12,709 bases of DNA, taken from assembly GCA_021823555.1 (NCBI GenBank), contig JAKANW010000031.1:1-12709 (forward strand). Reading direction: 5' to 3'. Within the stretch, counting starts at the first letter, position 1. The number at the start of each line of letters is the position of its first letter. The notes below the pieces were generated by a model. It did no database searches, was not told the origin of the DNA, and worked only from the letters and a program-made list of their open reading frames with translations. A program made the translations under genes and the position numbers. The stretch is from Chloroflexota bacterium (lineage in GTDB: Bacteria > Chloroflexota > Anaerolineae > Anaerolineales > Villigracilaceae). Below, one piece after another: positions 1 to 12,709 of this stretch.

Positions 1-1
1 T

Positions 2-1408
2 GAACTTACTCGTAGTCTCTTCATCAAGAATGCGCTAAAAAGCCGCTATCCACAACTGGCTATATTTATCGTTATGTTGGCGGGATATGTCTTTGCCATT
101 CTTGCGGGACTCATCGGTACACCTGTCGGAAGTCATAATTTCAGCATTGTCTTCGTGTGGATTGCGTGGTGGGCTATCCTTATTCTCGTTGCCGTTCCAT
201 TTGTCGGGCGCGGCTGGTGCGCAGTCTGTCCGATCCCGCTCCCCGGTGAATGGCTTCAACGCGGCGCGATATTACGCCCTCTGAGTGCTGAGCTTGCCGT
301 CTCGCACCGTCGTCCACAGGATCGCTCCGCTGATGCTCGCGGCACGAACGGTGTCGAAGCATCGAAGCGGCAGTCGAAGGGCAGATGGCTCAATTTGCGC
401 TGGCCGAAATTCCTGCGCAACATCTGGTTGCAGAATATTTCATTTCTTCTGCTTGCATTATTCAGCAGCGTCCTGCTTACCACACCGAATATTACAGGAA
501 TCGTTCTAGCGGCGATGTTATTCGTGGCAATCGGACTAAGCACAATCTTCGAGCGCCGCGCCTTTTGCCGTTATCTGTGTCCCGTTGGCGGATTCATTGG
601 CCTATATTCCCAAGTCGCGCCAATCGAATTGCGCATCAAAAACAAACAGGTCTGTGTGACCTGCGAAGGCAAGCCCTGTTACAACGGCTCTTCAAATGGT
701 TATGGTTGTCCGTGGGATGTTTTCCCTGGAGGTTTATCCAAAAACACCTATTGCGGGTTGTGCATGGAATGTGTCCGTACCTGCCCGCACGACAACATCG
801 CGATAAACCTTCGTCCCTTCTCTGCCGACCTTGTCAAACCATCCATAAGAATAGATGAAGCCTTCAAAGCCTTCATTATGCTCGGCTCTGCGATGATTTA
901 TGCGGGCGTATTGCTTGGTCCGTGGGGAGTGCTCAAAGATGCGGCATATAACGTTGGAACAAGTTATTGGTTTTTATATGCCGTTGTATTTCTCGCAATT
1001 ATCTTCGTCATTCTTCCAGGTTTCTTTACACTTGGCATTCTACAAACAAACGGCAACCTCCCCCTCGATCAACGATTTGCTTCCCTCGCAACCGCCCTTA
1101 TTCCTCTCGGCTTGATGTTCTGGGTTGCCTTCAGTTTATCCTTCGTCCTGACCAATGCGTCATACATTCTCGCCGCGCTCTCCGACCCGCTCGGCCTCGG
1201 TTGGAATCTCTTTGGCGCAGCAAACGCCGCGTGGCAACCCATGCTCACACCCTTTCTTGCACCTGCACAGACTCTCGCGCTCGTTGGCGGTTTAATCTGG
1301 TCCGCGCACACGGCACAGAAAGCCGCGGGGGAAGCGCGGGTGTCGCCTATCCCTGTCATCATGTATTGCTTTGTTGCCACACTGATCATGCTCCGGTTAT
1401 TGCTATGA
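2..1408 (+). CDS. Polytopic 4Fe-4S membrane protein, NapH/NosR/CcoG-like (5' partial)
   Basis: This is probably a membrane quinol- or ferredoxin-linked electron-transfer subunit. The frame is open from position 2 with no stop, so the true start lies upstream. An ATG at 74 falls inside the first hydrophobic helix and is unlikely to be the start. About eight hydrophobic segments are visible. Cysteine motifs run in order: CxxCP (codon 218), CxxxCP (566-580), CxxC...C...CPW (from 653), and a ferredoxin-type CxxCxxCxxxCP (752-784). Paired CP motifs between helices plus ferredoxin clusters are typical of the NapH/NosR/CcoG group. The gene overlaps the CuA-cytochrome gene by ATGA, so the two are probably translationally coupled. 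A nosH-like role in a clade II N2O-reductase cluster is possible, but nosZ is not in view. A hydrophilic, Arg/Ser-rich stretch at about 281-381 looks like a repeat-derived insertion. Confidence 0.85.
   Translation, partial: ELTRSLFIKNALKSRYPQLAIFIVMLAGYVFAILAGLIGTPVGSHNFSIVFVWIAWWAILILVAVPFVGRGWCAVCPIPLPGEWLQRGAILRPLSAELAVSHRRPQDRSADARGTNGVEASKRQSKGRWLNLRWPKFLRNIWLQNISFLLLALFSSVLLTTPNITGIVLAAMLFVAIGLSTIFERRAFCRYLCPVGGFIGLYSQVAPIELRIKNKQVCVTCEGKPCYNGSSNGYGCPWDVFPGGLSKNTYCGLCMECVRTCPHDNIAINLRPFSADLVKPSIRIDEAFKAFIMLGSAMIYAGVLLGPWGVLKDAAYNVGTSYWFLYAVVFLAIIFVILPGFFTLGILQTNGNLPLDQRFASLATALIPLGLMFWVAFSLSFVLTNASYILAALSDPLGLGWNLFGAANAAWQPMLTPFLAPAQTLALVGGLIWSAHTAQKAAGEARVSPIPVIMYCFVATLIMLRLLL
281..381 (+). 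repeat. Putative repeat-derived insertion inside the 4Fe-4S protein gene
   Basis: Between two hydrophobic segments the protein has about 34 low-complexity hydrophilic residues rich in R, S, A and Q. The DNA contains CTGAGC at 288-293 and GTGTCGAAGC near 350, words related to the dispersed repeat at 1807-1824 and 4511-4527. This suggests a short palindromic repeat tolerated in frame in a loop. It is inferred from word sharing only. Confidence 0.35.
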
Positions 1409-2412
1409 AACGCTCGGAACTCCTCTCACGCATTTTGATAACGGCGGCAATTATCGGGGCGGTCGGAACGCCGCTGTTTTTCTGGGCGCGCTCGCCGCTC
1501 ATCCATGCGCGCATTGCCGAAGATGGCGGATGGAGTCCAGATGTCATCCAGGCGGAGGCCGGCCAGCCGCTTCATTTGAGTCTTACGTCAGATGACGTCG
1601 TTCACGGCTTTGCTGTCGGCCAAATGGATATGCAAAGCGTGGACGTTCTGCCTGGCAAGGTGACCGACATTACTTTGAATTTTGACAAGCCTGGAATTTA
1701 CACGTTTTACTGCACGCGCTGGTGTGGACTCAATCACTGGCGGATGCGCGGCGTGATTGAAGTCAGCGGTTCAAATGCGGAGCCTCAGCCTGCTTCCACG
1801 CCTGTACTGAGCGAAGTCGAGGCGCCGCTCTATGTTTCCCTCGGCCTCGACATTGATGCGCCGCATGACGCGCCGATTGTTCCAGGCATTCAGCCGTCAG
1901 CGCTCAGCGGTCAGCAACTCGCAACCGATTTACCAATCTCCTCATTGATCAATCCCGATTTCTATCGTACAAATTCACCTTACCAATTATTTCAAGATTT
2001 GAATTCAACAAATTTGAATGATTCTGAAAAATGGGATGTCGTCAGTTACATCTGGCAATCGAACACTTCACCCGAATCTCTCGCAAAGGGGCAAAAGCTC
2101 TACGCCCAAAACTGCGCCGCCTGTCACGGCGAGAACGGCGCGGGCGATGGAGTCTTTGCGGATGATCTGAAGGCTGCGGGAGAATCATCCAAGCAAACGA
2201 TGGCAGGTGCGCAGAACATGACAAGGCAGACTCCTGCCGACTTTACAGACCCAACTCGAATGCTCGACGCAAGCCCTGCGTTATTGCAAGGCAAAATCCT
2301 GCGCGGTGGCATGGGCACAGGCATGCCGATGTGGGGTTCGATTTTTACCGAAGACCAAATCTGGGATTTGATTGCATATTTGTATTCATTCCAGTTCGAA
2401 TATCATAACTGA
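1405..2412 (+). CDS. Membrane-anchored CuA cupredoxin fused to cytochrome c
   Basis: The ATG at 1405 overlaps the upstream stop (ATGA) and gives 335 residues. An N-terminal anchor helix (about 10-28) places the rest outside the membrane. A cytochrome-oxidase-subunit-II-like cupredoxin follows. H67 sits in a DDVVH context, and the CuA motif CxxxCxxxHxxM is complete (C103, C107, H111, M114), so a binuclear copper centre is predicted. After a linker (about 121-145), residues 146-225 resemble the shell of a cytochrome c domain without any CxxCH. The last domain (about 226-335) has one haem site, CAACH at 237-241, with M307 or M309 as probable axial ligand. Electron flow quinol > Fe-S protein > haem/CuA > terminal reductase is plausible. 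It is not a standard CoxB because only one anchor helix is seen. A NosC-like donor or an alternative oxidase subunit are the main options. Confidence 0.85.
   Translation: MKRSELLSRILITAAIIGAVGTPLFFWARSPLIHARIAEDGGWSPDVIQAEAGQPLHLSLTSDDVVHGFAVGQMDMQSVDVLPGKVTDITLNFDKPGIYTFYCTRWCGLNHWRMRGVIEVSGSNAEPQPASTPVLSEVEAPLYVSLGLDIDAPHDAPIVPGIQPSALSGQQLATDLPISSLINPDFYRTNSPYQLFQDLNSTNLNDSEKWDVVSYIWQSNTSPESLAKGQKLYAQNCAACHGENGAGDGVFADDLKAAGESSKQTMAGAQNMTRQTPADFTDPTRMLDASPALLQGKILRGGMGTGMPMWGSIFTEDQIWDLIAYLYSFQFEYHN
1807..1824 (+). repeat. Dispersed repeat word within the CuA-cytochrome linker
   Basis: CTGAGCGAAGTCGAGGCG closely matches CTGAGCCTGTCGAGGCG at 4511-4527 inside the MITE-like element, differing by a few bases and 1 nt of length. 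In the gene it encodes part of the Pro/Ser/Glu linker just after the cupredoxin domain, where an insertion would be tolerated. Confidence 0.45.
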
Positions 2413-2421
2413 GGAGGCTCT

Positions 2422-2886
2422 ATGAACAAGAAACATCGAAGGCAAAAGCAAAAGAAAAGTTTTCCCTGGGTACTCTTAGCCTTTGGCAGTGTTCTCATTG
2501 TTGCCGCAATATTCCTCTTCGCCAATCAGGGCGGCGGAGATGGCAGTGGGACGCCGTCCATTGCGGTGGATCAACAGAAAATTGATTACGGTGATGTGAA
2601 ATTCGGCGTCAATAAAACCTTTGCCATCAAAGTCACCAATACAGGCGATGGCACGCTGCGATTCAAGGAAGACCCCTACATCGAAGTCGTGGAGGGGTGC
2701 TGACCGCCTCAATTGACCATCGGTTCGATGGTACTCAAGCCCGGCGAAAGCACAATCGTTCAATCCAGCGTCTTTATGATGCACGAAGGCATGGACGGTC
2801 CACATAACTTTGCGGTTCACCTCAAAACAAATGACCCCAACAATCCGGATTTGATCGTAAACGTATTATCGAATTGGATTCCATAA
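2422..2886 (+). CDS. Candidate selenoprotein: membrane-anchored Ig-like (DUF1573-type) protein with GCUPP motif
   Basis: The start is fixed by GAGGAGG at 2411-2417, 4 nt before ATG, 9 bp after the cytochrome gene. Reading the in-frame TGA at 2701-2703 as selenocysteine gives 154 residues ending at TAA 2884-2886. A basic N-terminus and one helix (about 14-34) anchor it. Residues 46-84 match the DUF1573/ASPM-SPD2-Hydin Ig-like fold (IDYGDVKFG, then KVTNTGDGTLRF). U94 follows C93 in G-C-U-P-P, a place where a Cys pair would be natural. Past the TGA the frame stays coding-like: a VLKPGE turn typical of these folds, then M119 M120 H121 x G123 M124 x3 H128 and KTNDPNNPDL. Stopping at the TGA would give a 93-residue protein lacking half the fold. 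An extracytoplasmic thiol/selenol or copper-handling role fits the operon; this is inference. Alternatives are a recent nonsense mutation or a sequencing error. Confidence 0.8.
2701..2738 (+). promoter_or_regulatory. Candidate bacterial SECIS element
   Basis: The TGA is followed by 18 nt, then an apical loop GGUUC (2722-2726) closed by a perfect 6-bp stem (2716-2721 ACCATC with 2727-2732 GATGGT). Three lower pairs (2713-2715 TTG with 2736-2738 CAA) form across a 3-nt bulge. Bacterial SECIS elements lie just 3' of the UGA, with a conserved G/GU in the apical loop about 16-37 nt downstream. In E. coli fdhF, as I recall it, GGU also begins 18 nt after the UGA. Confidence 0.7.
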
Positions 2887-2895
2887 GTCACGACG

Positions 2896-2945
2896 AATCG
2901 AAACAGCGGCCTGTTTTTAAGAACAGGCCGCTGTTTCGATTGTTT
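2896..2945 (+). terminator. Strong hairpin terminator after the selenoprotein gene
   Basis: A perfect 20-bp inverted repeat (2896-2915 with 2922-2941) with a 6-nt loop lies 10 bp past the TAA at 2884-2886. Only GTTT follows, so the U-tract is weak. That it comes after 2886 rather than after 2703 supports translation and transcription running past the TGA. Confidence 0.75.
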
Positions 2946-2950
2946 AACCG

Positions 2951-3137
2951 TTAGACTGATATCGGTTCCCTGCTCGTATGTTGCAGGCAGAACCGGGTTT
3001 TGCAGAGCTGCGCCCGCGCCAGCAGGCAAAACGACTTGGCGAGAGGGCCGGAAAGGGGGTTTGTTTCGTTCCGTACATGATCTCTTTAGCAACGATTTTT
3101 CGATCGTGAGGGATGAACCGTCGAGGATAATGGTCAT
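2951..3137 (-). pseudogene. Remnant of an aromatic amino-acid (histidine-type) ammonia-lyase N-terminus
   Basis: AGGAG (3150-3146) lies 8 nt before an ATG at 3137. The first codons read MTIILDGSSLTIEK, which resembles the start of HutH/PAL-family lyases. A +1/-1 shift then gives KEIMYGT..TPFPALS, comparable to the family's YGxNTGFGxLS segment. A third frame gives an L..QHTS.EPIS stretch similar to the LxxxLxxSHxxGxGxPLS segment. About 40 codons between the first two blocks are missing, and the family's MIO (ASG) active-site region and the rest (about 500 residues in intact enzymes) are absent. It is therefore a heavily decayed 5' fragment that kept its promoter and ribosome site. The assignment rests on short motif matches by eye, so it is moderate at best. 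A small unrelated ORF cannot be excluded. Confidence 0.45.
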
Positions 3138-3180
3138 GGGCAATTCTCCTGTGTGGGATTTGCGTTATTGCAGCCCTCGT

Positions 3181-3235
3181 AAAACAAAATGCCCGCCGCC
3201 AGGGTGAGGGGGGCACCCTAGCGACGGACAGGCAT
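3181..3235 (-). terminator. Leader hairpin with U-tract (attenuator-like) ahead of the lyase remnant
   Basis: On the - strand, 3235-3214 pairs with 3206-3189 in a long GC-rich stem with G-U pairs and one 4-nt bulge. It is followed directly by TTTTGTTTT (3189-3181). This is a textbook intrinsic terminator shape, lying between a promoter (3264-3236) and the start codon at 3137. It could be an attenuator or riboswitch expression platform, though little room exists upstream for an aptamer. It might also terminate + strand transcripts. Confidence 0.55.
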
Positions 3236-3264
3236 ATTTTACACGATACTTTACAAAATTCCAA
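3236..3264 (-). promoter_or_regulatory. Sigma70-type promoter for the leader and lyase remnant
   Basis: On the - strand, -35 TTGGAA (3264-3259), a 17-nt spacer, and -10 TAAAAT (3241-3236). A transcript would begin at about 3229, at the edge of the leader hairpin. Confidence 0.55.
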
Positions 3265-3331
3265 GCGTTTGCAAGAACCTGCTGCACTGCATGGATGAGG
3301 CTGCCCGTGATACGAGTGCACAATCACTGGT

Positions 3332-3672
3332 CTAACGTATCCCAAATAACGTCCTGGACAGAATCAATGTGATCCACACGTCATCGTTCCAGAAGCGCAA
3401 TACTTTGTGTCCTTTGGATTCCAGGAACGTGGTTCCCTCTGCATCGTATTCCTCCTGCTCCACGTGTTGGCTTCCACCAGTTCAATGATGAGCTTCTTGC
3501 GCGGGGCGCAGAAGTCCACAACGTAATTGCCGATTGCATGTTGTGTGCGAAAATGGACATCGCCCATGTGGTGAGCGCGCAGGTGAGACCACAGCTTTTC
3601 CTCTGCGGGAGTCATGTTACAGCGCAATTCTTTGGCGCGGACAACGATTTTCGGGGTTGTGCGTTTATGCAT
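3332..3672 (-). pseudogene. DUF559 (Vsr-like fold) endonuclease-type protein, single-base frameshift
   Basis: The N-terminal half, from ATG 3672, has the DUF559 signature: AKELRCNMTPAEEKLWSHLR, FRTQHAIGNYVVDF, then KKLIIEL. After GAACTGG the frame breaks. In the next frame the family continues: HVEQEEYDAEG, ESKGHKVLRFWNDDV, and a final LFGIR, stopping at TAG (3334-3332). Restoring one A between 3476 and 3477 turns GGTGGAAGC into the family's L-D-G-x-Q-H context and gives about 113 residues, the usual DUF559 length. The lost base falls in the codon of the Asp of the ELDG motif, likely a metal-binding residue of this PD-(D/E)xK-like fold. An upstream GTG at 3687 is an alternative start. A sequencing error could restore an intact gene. 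The neighbouring remnants are restriction-modification related, which suits a nuclease. Confidence 0.8.
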
Positions 3673-3681
3673 TCGCCCCCC

Positions 3682-3778
3682 CACCACCTTGATATCTTTC
3701 TCCGTCAGCCCATATCATCCCCGCCATAGGTCCCCGAGGAGGGCAGGGGGCAACTCATAGACCAGAATATCAATTGCC
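3682..3778 (-). pseudogene. Second C-terminal remnant of a type II DNA methyltransferase (copy B)
   Basis: In one frame the sequence reads KAIDILVYEL, twelve foreign codons including TGA, then YGLTEKDIKVV. Without the twelve codons this is the typical VYELYGLTEEEI tail of Eco57I-like methyltransferases, also seen in copy A (4017-4283). Identity to copy A includes TCAGCCCATA and CAACTCATAGACC on the + strand, separated only by the 36-bp insertion 3715-3750. The frame runs on into the DUF559 remnant. Only about 20 residues of homology remain. Confidence 0.65.
3715..3750. other. 36-bp insertion splitting methyltransferase remnant B
   Basis: Copy A joins AGCCCATA directly to CAACTCATAGACC at 4051-4071. 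Copy B has exactly 36 extra bases at that junction, G/C-rich with a CCCCGAGGAGGG core. The insertion is a multiple of three but brings a TGA (- strand 3717-3715). No clear terminal repeat or target duplication is visible. Confidence 0.6.
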
Positions 3779-4012
3779 TTATTTGTTGTCGCGTTCTTCC
3801 GTTTCACCCTGTTCCATCTGTAGTTCTCTCTGCTTGGATGGACAGTGTTTATCAGAATACGAACAAAATACACAACAATCCCCTTCCTTCGGACGCAGGA
3901 TTGCACCGCAACTGGCGCACTGATAAAAGATGACTCAGGTATCAGGCGGCATTTGCTCGCTTTTGGCAAAGCCGCACTGCGGACAGGTGATAATGGCGTT
4001 CAGTTCTATCAT
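3779..4012 (-). CDS. GDCCVxC-family small (seleno)protein with in-frame TGA as Sec26
   Basis: ATG at 4012 is preceded by GAAGGA with 8 nt spacing and starts 4 nt after the methyltransferase remnant's stop. The frame reads MIELNAIITCPQCGFAKSEQ, MPPDT, then TGA (3937-3935), then VIFYQCASCGAILRPKEG, DCCVFCSYSDKHCP and a charged tail, ending TAA at 3781-3779 (77 residues). The family is recognised by GDCCVFCSY, a C-P-x-C-G zinc-ribbon-like start (C10, C13) and the YxCxxC pair (C32, C35). Family members I recall have Cys where TGA stands (D-A-C-x-F-F-Y against D-T-U-V-I-F-Y), and selenocysteine forms are recognised for this family. Function is unknown; thiol/metal binding is likely, and such genes can sit near heavy-metal resistance loci. 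The frame after the TGA is intact over 51 codons, which argues against decay, although the neighbours are pseudogenes. Confidence 0.8.
3893..3937 (-). promoter_or_regulatory. Candidate bacterial SECIS element of the GDCCVxC gene
   Basis: After the TGA and 27 nt, an apical GGU (3907-3905) is closed by UUGC (3911-3908) with GCAA (3904-3901). A 2-nt bulge, CAG (3914-3912) with CUG (3898-3896), a bulged C (3915) and GCG (3918-3916) with CGU (3895-3893) extend the stem. The distance and GGU loop agree with bacterial SECIS rules and with the element at 2701-2738. Confidence 0.6.
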
Positions 4013-4016
4013 TGTC

Positions 4017-4283
4017 TTATCCTTCAACTAATCTTATTTCTTCCTCGCTCAGCCCATACAACTCATAGACCCTCTTATCAATCTCCCCATCATCCACGGA
4101 CTTGATCTGCTTATCCAGCGACCGGGCGCGGTCGAGATCGTCCTCGGGCCGCACGGGCTGGCGCTCTTTTTGCAGAGCCAGCATTTGCTCGACCAGCTTG
4201 ACAATCTCATCGTGCGCGGATTTTTCGGCAGGTTTGGCAAAGTCAATGCGGCGGATGGGAATCTTCACTACATCTTGCTGAAA
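4017..4283 (-). pseudogene. C-terminal fragment of an Eco57I-like type II DNA methyltransferase (copy A)
   Basis: The open frame begins after a TGA at 4286-4284 and reads KIPIRRIDFAKPAEKSAHDE, then IVKLVEQMLALQ, and ends in VYELYGLSEEEIRLVEG and TAA (4019-4017). This is the characteristic C-terminal tail of Eco57I/type IIG methylases, which are usually near 1000 residues. About 85 remain, with no catalytic NPPY or AdoMet-binding part, so it is a truncated relic. A GTG at 4268 would allow translation of the fragment. Its last codons contain the ribosome site of the GDCCVxC gene, so translation of the relic may still couple to that gene. Confidence 0.75.
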
Positions 4284-4896
4284 TCATCTCAATCTTCCGC
4301 GTTAAACTTTATCCTGTTCCCTGGCTCTGCATCGTTGCGAGTCGAAGTAATTCATATTTTAGCATGTCTCTGGACTGCTGCATGCAGGTCACGTTTGAGG
4401 AGTGACTACATTGCCGGCGCATTAGGGCAATCGCATTTGGATTTTTTCACAACCGAAAATGAGCGAAAGTTGTCATTGCGAGGGCTGGTGGTCGAGTAGG
4501 CGGCCTCGCGCTGAGCCTGTCGAGGCGTCTTCCGCCGTATCGAGACCCAACCCGAAGCAATCTCCCTTTTTAATGGGCAAAAACATGCTTTCAGGAATTG
4601 CCTCGTTCGCCGGGGAACGCTCACTCGCAATGACATCGTTATTTTAGCGATTGCCCTGCTGGCGTGTCGGTCAGGTTGGCAGCCCCGCCCGGTTTCATGG
4701 TGCGCTAACTGATCTATCCGGTATGGACACTAATTTAGCCAGTGGGCGCACCGGTTTGGTTGATGGGCATACCGATCTTGCAATAAAAATATAATGTGTT
4801 TTGTATTGATGGATTGCCCTGTTCATGTTATGAGGAAGATATTGGTTTTGGTGTCTCTTGCCTCCCTCAATAGGCAAGACCAGATCGAGGTGCATG
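4284..4896. other. Intergenic region without a credible gene
   Basis: The short frames here lack family features. The stretch holds a 165-bp MITE-like element (4471-4635) and, nearer the sensor gene, an isolated TATAAT at 4790-4795 without a matching -35. Nothing else is recognised in 4290-4470 or 4640-4780. Confidence 0.6.
4471..4635. mobile_element. MITE-like element with 12-bp terminal inverted repeats
   Basis: TGTCATTGCGAG at 4471-4482 is perfectly inverted as CTCGCAATGACA at 4624-4635, bounding 165 bp with no coding capacity. The interior carries a CTGAGCCTGTCGAGGCG word (4511-4527) shared with the linker of the CuA-cytochrome gene. Elements ending in this TCATTGCGAG motif are, from memory, common dispersed repeats in several bacterial phyla. 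No target-site duplication is evident. Confidence 0.7.
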
Positions 4897-7800
4897 ATGG
4901 ACCAAAAATCGCACAACAAAAAGAAAGACGATCCTTTGGGGGGCGCGAAAAAAACTGTTCCGCCGGCTTCCTATTTCGCCAGCATAGTGGATTTCATCCC
5001 GGACGCGTTGATTTCGACTGACAATCAATACAGGGTGACCGGCTGGAACGCGGCGGCAGAGCGCACGTATGGGTGGAAAGCCGAGGAAGTGACGGGGAAA
5101 CCGGTCAGCAATTTCTTCCAAACCAGTTATCAAAATACGGACAGAAATGAAGTCATCGCCATAGCCAGGAAGACGGGGACCTGGTCCGGCGAGGTGACCC
5201 AACTGCGTAAGGATGGGACGCGCATTCCCATCTGGTCTTCGGTTTCCATCGTCAAGGATGAACAAGGCAGGCCCATCGGTTTCATCGGCGTCAACCATGA
5301 TATCAGCGAACGCAAGCGGACGGAAGAAGCGCTGCGTCTCAGCGAACAGAAGTTTTCCATCTTGTTCGAAAAGGCCGCTTTTGCTGCTTCGCTTTCGAGA
5401 TTGCCCGACGGCGTCATTGCGAATGTCAACGAGGCGTTCGAGAGGACATTTGGATATACAAAGCAGGAAGCAATAGGAAAGACATCCCTGGAACTGGGCA
5501 TCAATCCCGATTCTGAGGGACGAGAGCGCGCCCTCGCCGCGCTAAAAGAACAGGGTTCGGCGCGCAATCTGGAATTGGCCTTGCACACGAAATCTGGCGA
5601 ATTGCGTATTTTTTCTGTGAATATTGATTTGGTGAACATCGGCGATCAGAAATATATACTCAACACAACGCTGGATATCACCGAGCGCAGGCGCGCAGAG
5701 ATCAGGATCACACAACTCGCTCGACTTTACGCTACTCTGAGCCAGGTCAACCAGACCATCGTGCGCGTCAAGGATCACAACGAACTGTATCAAACCATCT
5801 GCGATGTTGCCGTGCAATATGGTGGATTTTCCCTGGCATGGGTCGGTTTGTTGGATGAGGGATCGGGGGAAATTCGCCCGGCGAAGGCGAACGGGTTGGA
5901 TGTGACCCAATGGCCTTTCCCTATAGTTAACATTCATCAGGGGCAGCTCAGGAGCGGGTTGATCGCAACCGCCATTCGCACGTTCAGGGTTGTGACCAGC
6001 GAGGATATCCAGACCGACCAAAGAACGCAAAGCCTGCACGACCAGTTTCAGAAATTTGATTACCACTCCTCAGCATTCGTCCCGTTTCGGCTGCGAGGCA
6101 GAACCATCGGCGTCCTGGGCCTGACTTCCAGCGAGGCAGACCTCTTCAAGGTCGAGGGGGAAGTGCGCCTGCTCGAAGAGATGAGCCTGGACATTTCCTT
6201 TGCGCTGGAAACAATGGAGACCGAAAGAATCAAACGCCAGTGGGCCGACGCGTTCGAGCATTGCGCCCATGGGATTTCCATCGGGCTTCCTGACGCCAAT
6301 CAGATCCTCACCTGCAACCCCGCCTTTGCGAACTTGCAGGGCCGCGCCATCGAAGAAATTTCATCCATGCCCATCCTGAGCATGTACGCGCCGCAGGATC
6401 ATGAGCACGTAAAACAATCCATTGCCGAGGCGGACCGCGTTGGCAGTGTGCGGTACGAAGCCCACATGATACGGAAGGATGGAAGCGTCTACCCGGTGCA
6501 GATGGACGTGGTCAGTGTGCGGGATGAAAACGGAAACCTGCTTTATCGAGTCGCCACCCAGCAGGATATCACCGAGCGCAAGCGTGCGGAGGCCGAGATT
6601 CAGCGCCACACCGAACAACTCGTCATTGTCAACGAAATTGGGCGCGCTCTTGCCCAAAAGCTGGAGTTGGAGTACATCTATCGCTCGATGGGAGAGGCTG
6701 TCTTTCGCCTCCTGCCGGATATTTCCTCTGTGTTCATCTCGCTCTTCGACGCGCAAAGGCACCTGATCACCTGCGCCTACGCCAATATGGACCAGGAATT
6801 GCTCGATCCCGCTGAACTACCCCCTATTCCGCTCGAGCCGCCGGGCAGAGGCACGCAGAGCGAAGCCATTCACACCCGCCGCCCGCTCATCGTCAACGAT
6901 CTGCGCGAGCGGCTCAAACAGGTGAAAACCAAAATGGATGTCGGCAGCAATGATGGGCGGATCTCCCAGTCGGGCCTGTATCTTCCCATGATAGCTGAAG
7001 AGCGGGTCATTGGCGTTATTCAAGTGCAGAGTTATACCCTGGGGCGATTCAGTGAAGCCGACGCCGATTTGCTCGGTCTGGCCGCGAACACAGCGGCGGT
7101 CGTCATCGAGAACGCTCGGCTGTATCGTGCAATCCAGCAAGAACTGGATGAGCGCAAGCGAGCGGAGGAGACCCTGCGGCAAAGCGAAGATCGCTACCAT
7201 GACCTCGTGGATCACAGCCACGATTTGATCGGCACCCACGACCTGCAGGGCAACATTCTCTCCATCAATCCCGCGGCTACGAAACTGGTAGGTATTGACC
7301 AGGATGCTCTCCTGAAAATGAACCTGCGCGACATCCTCGCCCCTGAGAGTCGCAACCTGTTCGACGATTATCTGGCAGCCATTCAAAGGGATGGACATGC
7401 CAGCGGCCTGATGCTGGTACAGACGAGCGCCGGGGAGAGGCGCATCTGGGAATATGACAACACACTCCGCACGGAATCCGTTGACAGGCCGATCGTGCGC
7501 GCCCTGGCGCGTGATATTAGCGAGCGCAAACGAGCGGAAGAGGAATTACGCAAGAGCGAGGAACGTTTTCGCAGTTTGTATGAGAACGCAACGATTGGTA
7601 TGTACCGTACTACTCCGGACGGTCATATCCTGCTCGCTAACCCGGCTCTCGTCAAGATGTTGGGGTATGCTTCCTTTGATGAATTGATACAGCGTAACCT
7701 GGAGAAGGAGGGGTATGAACCCGGCTATGAGCGCAGCCTATTTCACCAGCAAATCGAACGCGATGGAGCAGTAATCGGCCTCGAATCGGCATGGACACGG

Positions 7801-9408
7801 AAAGACGGGACCAACATTTTCGTACGCGAGAGCGCCAAAGCCATTAAAAATACTGAGGGCAACGTTCTGTATTATGAAGGCACGGTCGAAGATATCACCG
7901 AGCGTAAACGCGCTGAACAGGCCTTGCGCGAAAGCGAGACCCGCTTTCGCAGCATGATCGAAAACAGTTCCGATGAGATTTCAATCCTCGATGCCAGTGG
8001 TACATTGATGTATGAAAGTCCATCATCCAACCCCACGCTTGGTTATCGGCCAGGAGAATTCCTCGGTAAAAGCCTCTTTCAATTAATGCACCCTGATGAT
8101 CTGGCGCGTGTTCAAAGCCAATTCGCCCAGCTTTTGCGCGACCCGAATCTGCATCCCCGCGACCAATTCCGCCTGTTGCACAACAATGGAGCGTGGCGCT
8201 GGGTTGAAGCGGTAGGCACAAACCTGTTGGATGAGCCATCTGTGCGCGGGATCGTAATCAACTATCACGATATCACGGAACGCGTGCAGGCGCAGGAAAA
8301 GATCCAACATCAACTTCAAAGGTTGAATGCCCTGCGCATGATTGATCTGGTCATCAGCAATACATTCGATATGCAATTAAGTTTGACAGCTGTACTCAAA
8401 GAGGCTGTTTCACAATTGGATATCAGCGCTGCCGCGGTCCTATTGTACAACCAGCCCGCGCTGACGCTCAAATACGCCGCGGGCAATGGTTTTAGATCCT
8501 CCGCAATCCAGCAGATCCGGTTACGAATTGGTGAAGGCTTGGCCGGCCGCGCTGCCCTTGAACGCCGCACCATCCATATTCCTAATCTGGCGCGAACCGG
8601 GAACAATTTTGCACGCGCGGAATTGCTGGCGAACGAAGCCTTTATCTCCTATTACGGCGTGCCGCTGATCGCCAAAGGCGAACTTAAAGGAGTGCTTGAA
8701 ATTTTCCACCGCACCAAACTCGATCCCGATCAGGAATGGCTGGATTTTCTTGAAACTCTTGGTGGCCAGGCCGCCATCGCCATTGACAATGCACAGTTGT
8801 TCGAAGGTATGCAGCAATCAAATCTGGAGCTCATCGCGGCTTACGACGCCACCATCGCGGGCTGGTCCCACGCCATGGACCTGCGCGACAAGGAGACCGA
8901 GGGCCACACACAGCGCGTCACCGAATTGACCGTGAGGTTGGCGGAAAGAATGGGGATCAGCCAGCAGGAAATAGCCCACATCCGCCGCGGTGCGCTCCTG
9001 CACGACATCGGCAAACTGGGCGTCCCTGATCATATCCTGCTCAAGCCCAGTCAACTCACCGAGGAGGAATGGGTCATCATGCGCCAGCATCCCACCTATG
9101 CCTTCAACATGCTGACGCCCATCACCTATTTGCGGCCTTCACTGGATATTCCCTACTGCCATCACGAAAAATGGGACGGCAGCGGATATCCACGTAAGTT
9201 GAAAGGCGAGCAGATCCCTTTGGCAGCGCGTCTCTTTGCCGTTGTGGATGTGTGGGACGCCTTGCGCTCGGATCGTCCCTACCGTGCAAGTTGGTCTGTG
9301 GAACAGACGCGCCAGTACATCCTCGAACAATCGGGCAAACACTTCGAACCCCGTGTGGTCAGGCAATTCCTGGACATGCTCAATAACGGAGATTTTGCTT
9401 TCGGGTAA
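4897..9408 (+). CDS. Giant soluble multi-PAS/GAF sensor with HD-GYP output
   Basis: GAGGTG (4887-4892) with 4-nt spacing favours ATG 4897 (1503 residues) over ATG 4894 or a TTG at 4858. Domains in order: PAS 25-146, PAS 148-268, GAF 268-440, PAS 449-568, GAF 568-758, PAS 760-884, PAS 885-1009, PAS 1010-1135, GAF 1138-1300, HD-GYP 1318-1500. Each PAS ends with a DI(T/S)ER-type exit helix, except that PAS6 reads DITERVQAQ. The HD-GYP has the metal-binding HD (H1369, D1370 in LLHDIGK) and HHEKWDGSGYP (1422-1432), so an active cyclic-di-GMP phosphodiesterase is expected. No transmembrane helix, HAMP, histidine kinase or receiver domain is seen, so it should be a cytoplasmic one-component sensor of redox, gas or small ligands. 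No cofactor-binding residue can be assigned by eye. The gene stands alone, with an SGNH-like gene 12 bp downstream. Confidence 0.93.
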   Translation: MDQKSHNKKKDDPLGGAKKTVPPASYFASIVDFIPDALISTDNQYRVTGWNAAAERTYGWKAEEVTGKPVSNFFQTSYQNTDRNEVIAIARKTGTWSGEVTQLRKDGTRIPIWSSVSIVKDEQGRPIGFIGVNHDISERKRTEEALRLSEQKFSILFEKAAFAASLSRLPDGVIANVNEAFERTFGYTKQEAIGKTSLELGINPDSEGRERALAALKEQGSARNLELALHTKSGELRIFSVNIDLVNIGDQKYILNTTLDITERRRAEIRITQLARLYATLSQVNQTIVRVKDHNELYQTICDVAVQYGGFSLAWVGLLDEGSGEIRPAKANGLDVTQWPFPIVNIHQGQLRSGLIATAIRTFRVVTSEDIQTDQRTQSLHDQFQKFDYHSSAFVPFRLRGRTIGVLGLTSSEADLFKVEGEVRLLEEMSLDISFALETMETERIKRQWADAFEHCAHGISIGLPDANQILTCNPAFANLQGRAIEEISSMPILSMYAPQDHEHVKQSIAEADRVGSVRYEAHMIRKDGSVYPVQMDVVSVRDENGNLLYRVATQQDITERKRAEAEIQRHTEQLVIVNEIGRALAQKLELEYIYRSMGEAVFRLLPDISSVFISLFDAQRHLITCAYANMDQELLDPAELPPIPLEPPGRGTQSEAIHTRRPLIVNDLRERLKQVKTKMDVGSNDGRISQSGLYLPMIAEERVIGVIQVQSYTLGRFSEADADLLGLAANTAAVVIENARLYRAIQQELDERKRAEETLRQSEDRYHDLVDHSHDLIGTHDLQGNILSINPAATKLVGIDQDALLKMNLRDILAPESRNLFDDYLAAIQRDGHASGLMLVQTSAGERRIWEYDNTLRTESVDRPIVRALARDISERKRAEEELRKSEERFRSLYENATIGMYRTTPDGHILLANPALVKMLGYASFDELIQRNLEKEGYEPGYERSLFHQQIERDGAVIGLESAWTRKDGTNIFVRESAKAIKNTEGNVLYYEGTVEDITERKRAEQALRESETRFRSMIENSSDEISILDASGTLMYESPSSNPTLGYRPGEFLGKSLFQLMHPDDLARVQSQFAQLLRDPNLHPRDQFRLLHNNGAWRWVEAVGTNLLDEPSVRGIVINYHDITERVQAQEKIQHQLQRLNALRMIDLVISNTFDMQLSLTAVLKEAVSQLDISAAAVLLYNQPALTLKYAAGNGFRSSAIQQIRLRIGEGLAGRAALERRTIHIPNLARTGNNFARAELLANEAFISYYGVPLIAKGELKGVLEIFHRTKLDPDQEWLDFLETLGGQAAIAIDNAQLFEGMQQSNLELIAAYDATIAGWSHAMDLRDKETEGHTQRVTELTVRLAERMGISQQEIAHIRRGALLHDIGKLGVPDHILLKPSQLTEEEWVIMRQHPTYAFNMLTPITYLRPSLDIPYCHHEKWDGSGYPRKLKGEQIPLAARLFAVVDVWDALRSDRPYRASWSVEQTRQYILEQSGKHFEPRVVRQFLDMLNNGDFAFG

Positions 9409-9411
9409 AAT
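9406..9411 (+). promoter_or_regulatory. Possible -10 box (TAAAAT) overlapping the sensor stop codon
   Basis: TAAAAT lies 9 nt before ATG 9421 and no Shine-Dalgarno is present, which would suit a leaderless mRNA for the SGNH-like gene. No clear -35. Confidence 0.3.
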
Positions 9412-9420
9412 CACCCCGTT

Positions 9421-10452
9421 ATGCGCCCGACCTTTCGTTACATCATCCTGCTGGCTATTGTTTTGCTGGCCGTCTCTTTTAGCCTGCCACGTCTCTTTCG
9501 CGGCCCCTACCCACATCCGCCCGGCCCGACGTTGGATAAGGCCGTCAGCAAGTTGTATCAGCACGAGATAGAACAGCAGCACCCTGTCTTGGTGCTGTTG
9601 GGAGACTCGCTGCTCACCAAGGATGTGGACGCGCCCACCTTGCAGACGCGCCTCCGACTCCCAACCTACAAGCTGGATATCCCCGGCTCGTCGTCCGCCT
9701 TATGGTACCTGGTGGAAAAATCCAACATTGTTCCTGCGAACCCCGCGCCGCGCTACCTGCTGATCCTGTTCCGCGACACCATCCTGACCGCGCCAGCTTT
9801 CCGCACTACCGGTCCATATTTCGGCTTGATTGACAAATTCGCCAGCCCCAACGATACACTGCTGCTGGAGCGGGCTTATCTTTCCCAGATCGGCCCTGTC
9901 CAGGCGGCCCTGGAAAGCTATTTTCCACCCTTCACCTACCGCTCCGAACTGCGCGAGTCCATTGACTCCGGGCTGCGACATATTGCGCCCCGCCTCACCG
10001 GTTGCGATAGCGCCTGTGCGGACGACGCCATGCAGAAGACGCTGGGAGACATCCAGCCGGACATCTTCGCCGCCTCCATTATCCAGGCCGAACAAGCCCT
10101 GTATACACCCGAGCAATTGGACTTCCCTGCACAGGTGGATCGTTCCTTCCTGCCAGAGATCATCCGCCTGGCGCAGGAGCATGGCATCCAGTTGATCCTC
10201 GTGCGCGCCCCCGTCAACGTTTTCTCCAATCCTGCCGATGTCCCGCCGGGATTGGGGACATACGTTGCCGGCCTGGGAAGCTATCTGGCCGAAAAACACG
10301 TCCCCATGTTCGATCTGTCGCAGGTCGAGGGCATCGGCCCGTCCCAGTTCACCGATCCGCACCACATGACCCTGGAAGGCAAGGCCATTTTTACCGAAGC
10401 ACTGGCCAGGGCGCTGGAGGAATATATTAACTCCACCGCCAGCAGCAATTGA
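9421..10452 (+). CDS. Membrane-anchored SGNH-hydrolase-like protein
   Basis: 343 residues. One N-terminal helix (about 7-24) is an uncleaved anchor or signal, so the body is extracytoplasmic. A block I GDS motif (G61 D62 S63 in VLLGDSLL) and a late D-P-H-H (D312, H314, H315, in FTDPHHMTLEG) fit the Ser and Asp/His of SGNH esterases or acyltransferases. The arrangement resembles AlgX/AlgJ- or DltD-like proteins that modify surface polysaccharide, often beside an MBOAT transporter, though none is in view. One Cys pair (GCDSAC, about residues 198-203) could form a disulfide. It starts 12 bp after the sensor gene without a ribosome site. The exact substrate is unknown. Confidence 0.7.
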   Translation: MRPTFRYIILLAIVLLAVSFSLPRLFRGPYPHPPGPTLDKAVSKLYQHEIEQQHPVLVLLGDSLLTKDVDAPTLQTRLRLPTYKLDIPGSSSALWYLVEKSNIVPANPAPRYLLILFRDTILTAPAFRTTGPYFGLIDKFASPNDTLLLERAYLSQIGPVQAALESYFPPFTYRSELRESIDSGLRHIAPRLTGCDSACADDAMQKTLGDIQPDIFAASIIQAEQALYTPEQLDFPAQVDRSFLPEIIRLAQEHGIQLILVRAPVNVFSNPADVPPGLGTYVAGLGSYLAEKHVPMFDLSQVEGIGPSQFTDPHHMTLEGKAIFTEALARALEEYINSTASSN

Positions 10453-10475
10453 ATCTCTCCAACCTGATTTCCTTA

Positions 10476-10514
10476 TGAGGCCTGCACACCTCGCCTCAAA
10501 ATAATCTCTTTTTT
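10476..10514 (+). terminator. Weak hairpin followed by T-rich tract after the SGNH-like gene
   Basis: TGAGGC (10476-10481) pairs with GCCTCA (10493-10498) over an 11-nt loop. A CTCTTTTTT tract follows 8 nt later (10506-10514). The stem is short and the tract displaced, so this is only a possible terminator. Confidence 0.35.
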
Positions 10515-10527
10515 CCCCAACCAATGG

Positions 10528-10533
10528 TATCCT
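10528..10533 (+). promoter_or_regulatory. Possible -10 box of pyrD, leaderless arrangement
   Basis: GGTATCCT gives TATCCT ending 7 nt before ATG 10541. With no Shine-Dalgarno, transcription would start at or next to the start codon. No good -35. Confidence 0.3.
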
Positions 10534-10540
10534 TGTGACA

Positions 10541-11632
10541 ATGTATCCCATCCTCCGTCCTCTGCTCTTCCGCCTCGATCCCGAACGCGCCCATCAACTC
10601 ACGCTGAACGCCTTACGCCTTGCGGGAGTATTCGCCCCAGCCCATTGGTTTCTCGCGCAGGTATATTCCGCTCCATCCAAGCCCGTCGAAGCCTTTGGTT
10701 TGACATTCAGGAATCCGGTGGGCCTGGCCGCCGGCTACGACAAAGACGGAGTCGCCATCCGCGGCCTGGAAACATTGGGGTTCGGCCACATCGAGATCGG
10801 TACGGTCACATCCCTGCCGCAGCCGGGCAACCCCAAGCCGCGCATCTTCCGCCTGGTTGAAGACGAGGGCGTTATCAATCGCATGGGCTTTCCGAGCCTC
10901 GGCACTGAGTTCGTCCAGACGCGTCTCGATCCTGGGAACAAGGTCACGATTTGGGAGCGTGTGCTTGGGTTTCCAAGCCGCAAGGCCGCCAAGCCTCGCC
11001 AGAAACGTCAGGTCATCCTTGGCGTGAACATCGGCAGGAACAAGAATACCCCCAGCGAAGAAGCTGTATTCGACTATTTATCCCTGCTGCAAAATTTCGC
11101 CCCGCTGGCCGATTACCTGACCATCAACATCAGTTCGCCCAACACCCCCGGCTTGCGCCGCTTGCAGGAACGCGACGAATTGGAACGCCTGCTGACCCAT
11201 CTCCACAAGCAGCGACTGTTGGAGCAGGAACGCTTGAAGAAACGCGTCCCGCTTCTGGTCAAGCTGGCGCCTGATCTCAGCGCAGGAGAGATGGACGATG
11301 CCTTGGATGTGATCCTGCGCACGCGCATGGACGGCGTCATCGCCACGAACACGACCGTGGCGCGCCAGGGGCTGCGGTCAACTTATCAGAGTGAGAGCGG
11401 CGGATTAAGCGGCGGCCCGCTGCGGGTCCAGAGTGAAGCGGCGCTGGGTCAAATTGTGAAGCGCCTGGATGGGAAACTTCCAATTGTCAGCGTAGGCGGG
11501 ATCATGAGTCCCGTTGATGCAAAACGCCGCCTCGATATGGGAGCGGCGCTGGTGCAGGTCTATACCGGCCTGGTCTATCACGGGCCGGGGCTGGTCAAGG
11601 AGATATTGAAGGGCCTCGCGTCGCCTGCTTGA
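10541..11632 (+). CDS. pyrD: Dihydroorotate dehydrogenase (quinone), class 2
   Basis: This enzyme oxidises dihydroorotate to orotate with FMN and passes electrons to membrane quinone in pyrimidine synthesis. The MYPILRPLLFRLDPERAH start is the class 2 membrane-association extension, so ATG 10541 is chosen over GTG 10535 (363 residues). Family motifs: NPVGLAAGYDKDG, the GTVTSLPQPGNPKPRIFRL stretch, NRMGFPSLG, GVNIGRNK, NISSPNTPGLR (196-206, with the class 2 catalytic Ser), VKLAPDLS, ATNTT, GGLSGGPLR, and the FMN-phosphate part SVGGIMS and YTGLVYHGP. About 25 basic residues (130-157, around nt 10928-11010) are extra between GFPSLG and GVNIG, in a loop region. Its 3' end overlaps the convergent EthD-like gene by 38 bp. 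Confidence 0.96.
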   Translation: MYPILRPLLFRLDPERAHQLTLNALRLAGVFAPAHWFLAQVYSAPSKPVEAFGLTFRNPVGLAAGYDKDGVAIRGLETLGFGHIEIGTVTSLPQPGNPKPRIFRLVEDEGVINRMGFPSLGTEFVQTRLDPGNKVTIWERVLGFPSRKAAKPRQKRQVILGVNIGRNKNTPSEEAVFDYLSLLQNFAPLADYLTINISSPNTPGLRRLQERDELERLLTHLHKQRLLEQERLKKRVPLLVKLAPDLSAGEMDDALDVILRTRMDGVIATNTTVARQGLRSTYQSESGGLSGGPLRVQSEAALGQIVKRLDGKLPIVSVGGIMSPVDAKRRLDMGAALVQVYTGLVYHGPGLVKEILKGLASPA

Positions 11633-11951
11633 ATTCAGAGGGATTGGCTTCCTTGTGTTCGGCGATCAGCAGCGTGAAGTGGCCGCACGTGAACTCTTGC
11701 AGCCAGCCTCCCGCGGCCTGTCCTGCCTCGGATTGCAGCGCCGCATCGAGCGACTCGCGCGACTCGAAATACAGTTCATGGATCTTGGCATAGTGCGCCA
11801 GTTCCCTGCCGAAGACAAGTTGTTCCGTTTCCCCGACGGTCTCTTTCATCAGCCCCGGCATTTTTTCGGCCAGGCCCAGAAATTTTTGCCAGCCCTGTTC
11901 GAAAGCCGCCCAGGCCAGCGGTTGGTCGAAAAGGATGGTTAATTTGTGCAT
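11595..11951 (-). CDS. EthD-like (dimeric alpha-beta barrel) protein
   Basis: ATG 11951 has GGAG 8 nt upstream and begins 2 nt after the preceding gene's TAA, giving 118 residues. The MHKLTILFDQP start, a central KMPGL and a C-terminal strand FTLLIAEH match the EthD / DUF-type ferredoxin-like fold, with a mid segment HELYFESRESLDAAL (typical xxLxFxSxEAxxAAL). EthD relatives are small auxiliary proteins of oxidative pathways, and the exact function is unknown. The frame upstream of this ATG is open to 11993 but overlaps the kinase-like gene. The 3' end runs 38 bp into pyrD from the opposite strand. Confidence 0.75.
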   Translation of the reverse strand: MHKLTILFDQPLAWAAFEQGWQKFLGLAEKMPGLMKETVGETEQLVFGRELAHYAKIHELYFESRESLDAALQSEAGQAAGGWLQEFTCGHFTLLIAEHKEANPSEFKQATRGPSISP

Positions 11952-11953
11952 GG

Positions 11954-12583
11954 TTAATTCTCCATCCACAGGCCGCCGGTGGATTCCATCCAATCGGCGA
12001 CGCGCTCAGCAGCCAGTGGGACATTGTTGTCAGAGATGTCGAGTTCGAGTTTCGGCAGGCGCGACTCGCCGACCAGCCTGCGCATCAATTCCTGTTCCTG
12101 GATGAACGCCTCCAAGTGATCGTATTGCGAAGGTTTGCCTGAAACTTTCAGGCGCTCCTCACGCGCTGCCACGAAGGATTCCGGCGTGCGCGTCAAAAAG
12201 ACAAGATGGAAACCCAGCGGGGCCAGGCGTTCCTCCAGCCAGTGAAAGTCATAATCCTTGTTGTAGGTTTGCAATTGGTAGGCGCGGGTCGAGATGTGGA
12301 AACGGTCCACGATCCAGGAATAATAGCGCTGCAACTCGAACAGGCGCGCCCAGGTGGCGTAGGTCTCCATGGCCAGAGATTCTTCCTGCGGCTCGAAGTT
12401 GATCGGTCCGCGCCCCCAGGGGAAGTTGGTGAAGGCGCACCACTCGGCAGAGATGAGCGGCGAGTGATAGCGATATCTGCGCGGCCCCACGATGCGCGGG
12501 TGCTCGTTGAGCGTGAAGGCAATCTCGGTTTTGAACGTCAGGCGTGTGCCTTCGAGGATGATCTTGGGGGTAAGCTTGGTCAT
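11954..12583 (-). CDS. P-loop kinase-like protein with altered Walker A
   Basis: 209 residues from ATG 12583. KIILEGTRLTFKT (7-19) has the shape of a Walker A, GxxxxGKT, but the Gly before Lys is Phe (F17). D93-R94 in VDRFHIS matches the DR(Y/F/H)xxS motif of thymidylate and deoxynucleoside kinases, and a helix with REERLK (about 155-161) could serve as the lid. The first strand and glycine loop, DR motif and lid order all support a nucleoside/nucleotide-kinase fold. Whether it binds ATP is uncertain. The ATG lies 6 nt after a TATAAT, implying a leaderless transcript. A longer start at 12625 would cover the promoter and is less likely. It forms an operon with the EthD-like gene. Confidence 0.65.
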   Translation of the reverse strand: MTKLTPKIILEGTRLTFKTEIAFTLNEHPRIVGPRRYRYHSPLISAEWCAFTNFPWGRGPINFEPQEESLAMETYATWARLFELQRYYSWIVDRFHISTRAYQLQTYNKDYDFHWLEERLAPLGFHLVFLTRTPESFVAAREERLKVSGKPSQYDHLEAFIQEQELMRRLVGESRLPKLELDISDNNVPLAAERVADWMESTGGLWMEN

Positions 12584-12589
12584 GGCTGC

Positions 12590-12595
12590 ATTATA
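12590..12595 (-). promoter_or_regulatory. -10 box (TATAAT) of a probable leaderless promoter
   Basis: TATAAT on the - strand (12595-12590) is 6 nt upstream of ATG 12583, so the first transcribed base would be at the start codon. No Shine-Dalgarno precedes the ATG. The -35 is weak (GACGAA at 17 nt). Confidence 0.55.
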
Positions 12596-12668
12596 ACTGC
12601 CCGGCAAATGGTTTCGTCCAGACAAATTCTGGCTCTTCGGCCTTTAACGGGAAAGACCAGGACCTGTC

Positions 12669-12694
12669 CACAGATTACGCAGATTTCACAGATT
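12669..12694. repeat. Three CAGATT units at 9-bp spacing
   Basis: CAGATT occurs at 12671, 12680 and 12689, phased by 9 bp. I recall the CACAGATTACGCAGATT word as a dispersed intergenic repeat in many environmental genomes. The element is probably cut by the window end. Confidence 0.5.
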
Positions 12695-12709
12695 TTTTCT
12701 GCATAATCT

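Follow-up and report, generated by a model that had tools for sequence, protein, structure and literature searches.

A probable Cys-Sec selenoprotein encoded beside copper electron-carrier genes in Anaerolineales-type Chloroflexota

An in-frame TGA on a contig of a Chloroflexota bacterium (GCA_021823555.1, JAKANW010000031.1, positions 1 to 12,709, analysed as a whole and called the window below) raises the question of whether it ends a gene or encodes selenocysteine (Sec). Standard ORF calling lets the frame that opens at 2422 end at Cys93, and the protein collection contains the resulting 93-aa product of the window in this short form (P0081). Translated with TGA as U, the frame 2422-2886 instead gives 154 residues with a lone U at position 94 in the context E-G-C-U-P-P, followed by TAA. 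The TGA at 2701-2703 is the only one in this frame and lies within Gly-Cys-U-Pro-Pro, which bears out the initial annotation of an in-frame TGA at codon 94 beside a Cys in a Cys-Pro-Pro context. From the conservation of the TGA, the presence of Cys homologues at exactly this position, a hairpin of the bacterial SECIS type with covarying base pairs, and the Sec machinery found in related genomes, we consider the TGA at 2701 to be very probably a Sec codon and the gene to encode a selenoprotein (probability approximately 0.93).

The gene follows two genes for putative electron carriers (Table 1), the stop codon of the first of which shares an ATGA overlap with the start codon of the second. The product of the first gene also matches the NCBIfam napH subfamily (2.3e-10), below the cut-off of that model. 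The CuA-cytochrome gene that had been proposed upstream of 2422-2886 was recovered by its COX2 and Cytochrom_C matches. A strong terminator 10 bp after the frame had been proposed as well; a stable stem is indeed found at this distance, but the terminator scan of the window did not report the repeat at 2897-2940, and no T run follows it. An Rfam search of the window returned nothing relevant. Elsewhere in the window, the CuA-cytochrome c gene contains in its linker, at 1807-1820, CTGAGCGAAGTCGA, which is present in 1 of 177 loci and which we take to resemble a small palindromic repeat of other genomes. The window further encodes a 1516-aa sensor that combines several PAS and GAF domains with an HD_5 domain at its C-terminus (4858-9408), and, on the minus strand, a possibly truncated DUF559 (PF04480) ORF for which the profile match ends at position 61 of 109 (3364-3687).

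Table 1. Positions of the annotated features in the window, with the basis of each assignment.
Feature	Position	Strand	Basis
Membrane 4Fe-4S protein, NapH/NosR-like (Fer4_5)	2..1408	+	Pfam Fer4_5 5.5e-08; 5' end beyond window start
CuA-domain/cytochrome c fusion protein, 335 aa	1405..2412	+	Pfam COX2 4.6e-10, Cytochrom_C 5.5e-17
Shine-Dalgarno-like AGGAGG	2412..2417	+	Sequence; 5' of the ATG of the 2422-2886 gene
Probable selenoprotein gene, 154 residues then TAA, U at residue 94	2422..2886	+	Homologous genes: 119 UGA, 8 Cys
Predicted N-terminal membrane helix, residues 16-34	2467..2523	+	AlphaFold2 helix (low confidence) and hydrophobic N-termini of homologues
Vicinal Cys93 (TGC) and predicted Sec94 (TGA)	2698..2703	+	G-C-U-P in 119/119 UGA homologues
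Predicted bacterial SECIS-type hairpin ACCAUCG-GUU-CGAUGGU	2716..2732	+	Loop 2723-2725, 19 nt past UGA
M-M-H-E-G-M-D-G-P-H stretch, residues 119-128, candidate metal ligands	2776..2805	+	M-H-x-G-M in 97/119 UGA homologues
Perfect 20-bp inverted repeat, possible transcript end	2897..2940	.	-35 kcal/mol; 10 nt 3' of stop codon

Homologues with Cys in place of the predicted Sec, for which a search had been suggested, were found both among deposited proteins and among genes. A protein database search with the 154-residue translation yielded 1658 matches, and among the best 120 of these, residue 94 is a Cys in 118, a Trp in one (P0064, located on a 594-base contig), and the remaining match is the truncated ORF of the window itself. 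For the corresponding genes, a pattern scan of GTDB genomes identified 55 loci, 49 of them with the UGA form, and when 396 genomes from the class to which G001 (labelled Anaerolineales) belongs were searched, 90 had a match at E<=0.001 and, among the matches listed, 69 had one at E<=1e-15. In 64 of these 69 genomes the UGA form is present, and five (G307, G271, G265, G241, and G345) contain Cys forms only. From these searches and from fetched regions we compiled 127 distinct genes scoring above 70 bits, a few of which are partial. Genes of identical sequence were counted once, L164 and L114 were kept although partial or shifted, and L113 and the second piece of L114 (fragments in which the motif is absent) as well as matches below 70 bits (the L050 and L075 pieces, L165 at a contig end, and DUF1573-like proteins) were excluded. 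Codon 94 is TGA in 119 of these genes, TGT in four, and TGC in four, so that eight of the 127 encode Cys. In 400 genomes from the order, searched with a Cys protein as query (E<=1e-30), exactly one in-frame TGA is contained in 88 of the 90 matches listed, counted irrespective of its position, and the other two have a TGA plus a TAA (G759) or no stop (G550). In the phylum search, 17 of 301 genomes had a match, with one TGA in 23 of the 25 match rows and none in two fragments.

The frame beyond the TGA had been proposed to continue as coding sequence, and it is under purifying selection. Pairwise dN/dS values were computed for the frame 3' of the TGA (103 in total, of which 50 are listed, with dS close to saturation in many rows), and they range from 0.01 to 0.12 in 46 of the 50 listed pairs. 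A value of 0.29 was obtained for L043, and values of 1.1-1.6 for three distant genes (L090, L096, and L092), for which segments were compared without indel alignment.

A SECIS-like hairpin starting 18 nt after the TGA was also part of the initial annotation. The hairpin is present, but at a distance of 18 nt it is the GGUUC apex that starts, not the stem; the GUU loop itself is spaced 19 nt from the UGA (Table 1). Published rules for bacterial SECIS elements comprise a loop of 3-9 nt, a stem of 4-16 bp, a G in the first two loop bases, a spacing of 16-37 nt, and a minimum free energy of <= -7.5 kcal/mol (as summarised in PMC13188914). When the sequence behind the TGA at 2701 was checked, as had been advised, the hairpin of the window (7-bp stem, -7.6 kcal/mol) fell within all of them, energy included, and a 66-nt fold around it gave a z-score of -2.34 relative to shuffled sequences. 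Behind codon 94, the same rules including energy select 97 of the 119 UGA genes and none of the eight Cys genes, whereas elsewhere in the same 127 genes they select 931 of 14277 codon windows; a chance hairpin was rejected. The other 22 UGA genes fall short on the energy cut-off alone (isolated hairpin -4.7 to -7.4 kcal/mol). A plain 42-nt fold at <= -7.5 kcal/mol does not separate the two gene forms (115/119 UGA and 6/8 Cys genes). Under synonymous recoding with loops allowed 10-23 nt from the UGA, p<=0.05 was reached singly by 13 of the 119 UGA genes and p<=0.01 by none (p 0.14 for the gene of the window), so the amino-acid sequence by itself favours the hairpin.

Constraint on the RNA is visible at codon third positions, which we compared in 111 distinct in-register UGA genes after removal of L144 and L152 (one-codon insert) and of duplicate 42-mers. 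Codons +5, +6, +8, and +9 after the UGA end in C, C, G, and G in all 111 genes, despite variation of the encoded residues (Thr/Val/Ile, Val/Ile, Ser/Gln/Thr, and Met/Thr, respectively); in 55 of the 111 rows, the single codon of Met forces the G at +9. The loop codon +7 ends in T in 110 of the 111 genes, and the remaining third positions listed, this loop codon aside, range from 0.66 to 1.90 bits. Covariation was tested on 80 of the 111 genes (distinct 24-mers) against 500 shuffles. Stem cells were paired in 98.8% of cases versus 88.3% in the shuffles, cells with a double change numbered 79 versus 29.3, and the covariation measure was 0.453 versus 0.242, with slid registers giving a lower paired fraction, fewer double-change cells, and lower covariation than the true register. 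The column pairs 16-32, 17-31, and 19-29 switch jointly between A-U and G-C types. For the other two of the five measures the shuffles gave equal values: three pairs had a double change, and there were seven further pair types. Judged by the three measures that exceed the shuffles, together with the fixed third positions, the predicted hairpin is kept by compensatory change.

The capacity for Sec insertion was assessed in relatives through tRNA-Sec and selB, using two sets of 23 and 64 genomes with 14 controls each. In the first set, tRNA-Sec exceeded the cut-off in 21 of 23 genomes (63.6-74.6 bits, cut-off 47; controls 5/14), as did selB (21/23; controls 2/14), and in the second set tRNA-Sec exceeded it in 54 of 64 (controls 3/14). 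Two of the ten second-set genomes without tRNA-Sec are Cys-only (G307 and G345), both with selB below the cut-off; the other eight have the UGA form, and seven of them encode selB, the exception being G151. Across the 80 genomes with the UGA form (22 + 58), tRNA-Sec is thus found above the cut-off in 71 (21/22 + 50/58), and either tRNA-Sec or selB in 78, as selB covers seven of the nine genomes without tRNA-Sec. The two genomes with neither are G151 and G005, and in the latter selB is split over two frames and an EF-Tu-like match is also split, presumably owing to assembly indels. Among the nearest tree rows of the window gene, L010 and L012 belong to genomes (G006 and G007) that both encode tRNA-Sec and selB. 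Since tRNA-Sec is common across the class (295 of 396 genomes), its presence in UGA genomes is permissive rather than specific. Three of the Cys-only genomes (G271, G265, and G241) also carry tRNA-Sec, so the occurrence of the Sec or the Cys form is not a simple function of the machinery. A broken copy of the gene was observed in G023 (L050:5717-6135), a genome without tRNA-Sec or selB above the cut-off.

These data bear on two readings in which no Sec is inserted. If the TGA were a true stop, the gene would be truncated or a decaying remnant, as the deposited 93-aa product of standard ORF calling and the broken copy in G023 might suggest. An identical TGA in 119 distinct genes, the dN/dS values 3' of it in 46 of the 50 listed pairs, the fixed hairpin behind it, and the Cys at codon 94 of homologues lead us to reject this reading, which we regard as scarcely credible. 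Equally improbable in our view is a UGA read as another residue, such as Trp, by a suppressor tRNA or a reassigned code. The one database homologue in which residue 94 is Trp (P0064) would fit such a reassignment, but is itself likely to be a UGA gene that was translated with code 4 on a short contig. The homologues carry Cys rather than Trp, the SECIS-type hairpin accompanies the UGA genes only, and tRNA-Sec or selB exceeds the cut-off in 78 of the 80 UGA genomes, on which grounds Trp reassignment was rejected in favour of Sec.

A tree built from the 127 genes, with few columns and rough support, needs a minimum of four changes to account for the Cys state among Sec genes, and thus suggests that Sec was replaced by Cys repeatedly. 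A combined tree with the 118 database Cys proteins is poorly resolved, with nine state changes; a better tree, missed by the free search, unites the database Cys proteins in one group (p-AU 0.931), and this group could not be placed firmly on the combined tree. Two genomes contain both forms: in G152 (L091) the Sec and Cys copies adjoin at a distance of approximately 100 bases, and in G266 (L112) they are approximately 3.4 kb apart and flank a single PCYCGC/CuA/Fer4_5/CuA-cytochrome set.

Although the initial annotation knew of no described selenoprotein of this type, a DUF1573 selenoprotein, OS_HP2 (pfam07610, motif UxC/UGC), is already tabulated (PMC2398784, PMC9312934, and PMC13188914). The related description of the protein as DUF1573-type holds in the sense of a distant kinship, but membership in DUF1573 was rejected, as PF07610 scores 20 bits against a gathering cut-off of 26.1, while PF22544 (HYDIN/CFA65/VesB-like Ig) passes its cut-off of 25.5 with 26 bits. 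Membership in OS_HP2 was likewise rejected, with 12.9 bits for NF041425 against a cut-off of 100 and the Sec at a different residue. OS_HP2 is nonetheless a distant profile relative, matching weakly across nearly the whole model, and judged from its motif it carries its Sec in the corresponding region of the domain, as the first residue of C-x-C. In an alignment to ten C-x-C domain rows from six loci, considered DUF1573-like by motif alone, Cys93 falls on the first Cys in seven and on the second in three, and Sec94 would thus correspond to neither. The position of the OS_HP2 Sec and the low NF041425 score both indicate that the protein with G-C-U-P-P constitutes a separate subfamily.

Neither a PF22544 nor a G-C-U-P-P entry is present in the selenoproteins of Table 1 of PMC13188914. 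The same table lists several selenoproteins with a vicinal Cys-Sec (CU) motif, including CopZ-family form 2, SaoC, SaoL, MbdU, HgcA, and KCU-star, which resemble the window protein in their adjacent Cys and Sec, several being metal-linked by name, but which by their table identifiers belong to other domains, none with G-C-U-P-P or an Ig-like domain. The main texts of PMC13188914, PMC2398784, and PMC5029168 lack the term "Chloroflex", and PMC9312934 lacks "Chloroflexi"; a literature search of largely freely accessible papers that included selenoproteins of Anaerolineae and Chloroflexota listed no report of this family beyond the OS_HP2 papers. No NCBIfam model scored above its cut-off for the window protein. 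We know of no combination of Cys-Sec with a Met/His motif in PF22544, and the gene apparently belongs to an unlisted selenoprotein subfamily.

The structural data are compatible with the PF22544 assignment. An AlphaFold2 model with Cys in place of Sec has a mean pLDDT of 86 and a confident beta-sandwich from approximately residue 45, preceded by a helix of low confidence (residues 16-34, block pLDDT 52-68); the N-terminus is hydrophobic in 116 of 119 UGA homologues. Foldseek matched the model to ASH, HYDIN, VesB/VesC, OCRL ASH, and PapD-like Ig domains with moderate TM-scores of ~0.4-0.55. Residues 119-128 correspond to the M-M-H-x-G-M-x3-H stretch noted in the initial annotation. The product is predicted to be anchored in the membrane and to carry a vicinal Cys-Sec pair and a Met/His stretch on an Ig-like domain.

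The gene neighbourhood was compared in 125 loci, including the window and the Cys loci, over 6 kb on each side and both strands (BLAST, E<=1e-5); as short loci are numerous and some loci share a genome, the counts are rough. Fer4_5 proteins are neighbours in 71 loci, CuA-cytochrome c proteins in 70 (plus 13 via a second reference), PCYCGC proteins in 53 (plus 19 via a second reference), and small CuA/cupredoxin proteins in 49. Copper-type P-ATPases (37/125), histidine kinases (29/125), and HMA proteins (15/125) are less frequent, and ten loci have no reference neighbour at all. In the window the gene is positioned after the 4Fe-4S membrane protein and the CuA-cytochrome c, and in relatives these two are often preceded by a PCYCGC and a small CuA/cupredoxin protein. 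A contig titled Pseudomonadota (L018) has an Anaerolineales-like gene copy and neighbours and is probably misbinned. The frequent neighbour PCYCGC (PF13798, e.g. L010:6748-7191) belongs to a family with a known selenoprotein form, OS_HP4, with the motif UxxC (PMC13188914). A motif scan of the loci for U in PCYCGC-type proteins found none, the motifs being PCYCGC (65), PCFCGC (3), and PCYCNC (1).

The initial proposal that the protein may handle copper or act in redox chemistry on the outside of the membrane is plausible and is backed by the neighbourhood of the gene in relatives. The hairpin just 3' of the TGA would recruit SelB and Sec-tRNA, and the ribosome would insert Sec94, a step that follows from the conservation described above and from established knowledge of bacterial Sec insertion. 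A single N-terminal helix would tether the product to the membrane at its outer face, and the product would consist of a single Ig-like (ASH/PapD-type) beta-sandwich carrying Cys93-Sec94 and the conserved Met/His stretch. By binding Cu(I), or by maintaining thiols in the reduced state, it may allow copper to arrive at the CuA sites of the electron carriers encoded nearby. This service to the CuA sites, by Cu(I) binding or thiol reduction, is the likeliest role, which we propose tentatively. Copper chaperones for CuA such as SCO and PCuAC also act outside the membrane, are encoded beside CuA genes, and use Met/His/Cys-type ligands. The window protein shares the predicted site, the gene neighbours, and the type of its candidate ligands with them, but has no Pfam match to the SCO or PCuAC families at E<=1.

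Other functions of a selenoprotein at this site deserve consideration. Thiol-selenol redox chemistry in place of copper carriage, with the protein reducing or isomerising the cysteines of CuA or PCYCGC proteins, or acting on peroxides, is a real possibility that we hold with some doubt. Adjacent Cys and Sec residues can join in a selenenylsulfide, an example being the Gly-Cys-Sec-Gly terminus of mammalian thioredoxin reductase. Two of the 125 loci have a DsbD-like neighbour within 6 kb, and most uncharacterised selenoproteins are expected to be redox proteins according to a 2026 review (PMC13188914). However, the structure matches Ig-like and not thioredoxin domains, and the conserved Met/His stretch and the copper-transport neighbours favour a metal. 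Among metals, a soft toxic one (Hg, As, or Ag), bound by the protein as a sink or sensor, could be considered, as a role in metal ligation has been suggested for the Sec of SaoC (motif CU) and similar families, and HgcA of mercury methylation is listed with the motif CU (PMC13188914). We consider this improbable, as the neighbours are CuA and cytochrome genes, and mer and ars families were absent from the results of a general scan of 20 neighbour proteins.

Recurring across a large group of uncultured Chloroflexota beside copper-handling genes, the gene looks like an overlooked selenoprotein family. It is apparently unlisted and is found in 69 of 396 sampled class genomes (E<=1e-15), and, as in the window, ordinary gene calling truncates it at Cys93; the G-C-U-P motif with its fixed hairpin gives annotators a concrete pattern to look for. 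In its most specific and rather speculative form, the copper reading would make the protein a dedicated copper carrier based on selenolate, with an Ig-like fold and a site outside the membrane, where its vicinal Cys-Sec pair and Met/His ligands would serve to load the CuA sites of a Chloroflexota respiratory chain, with Sec as the usual form in the class and Cys forms that arose several times. The family would link selenium use to copper electron carriers, and the Sec/Cys pairs in two genomes offer a testable case for why cells use Sec over Cys.
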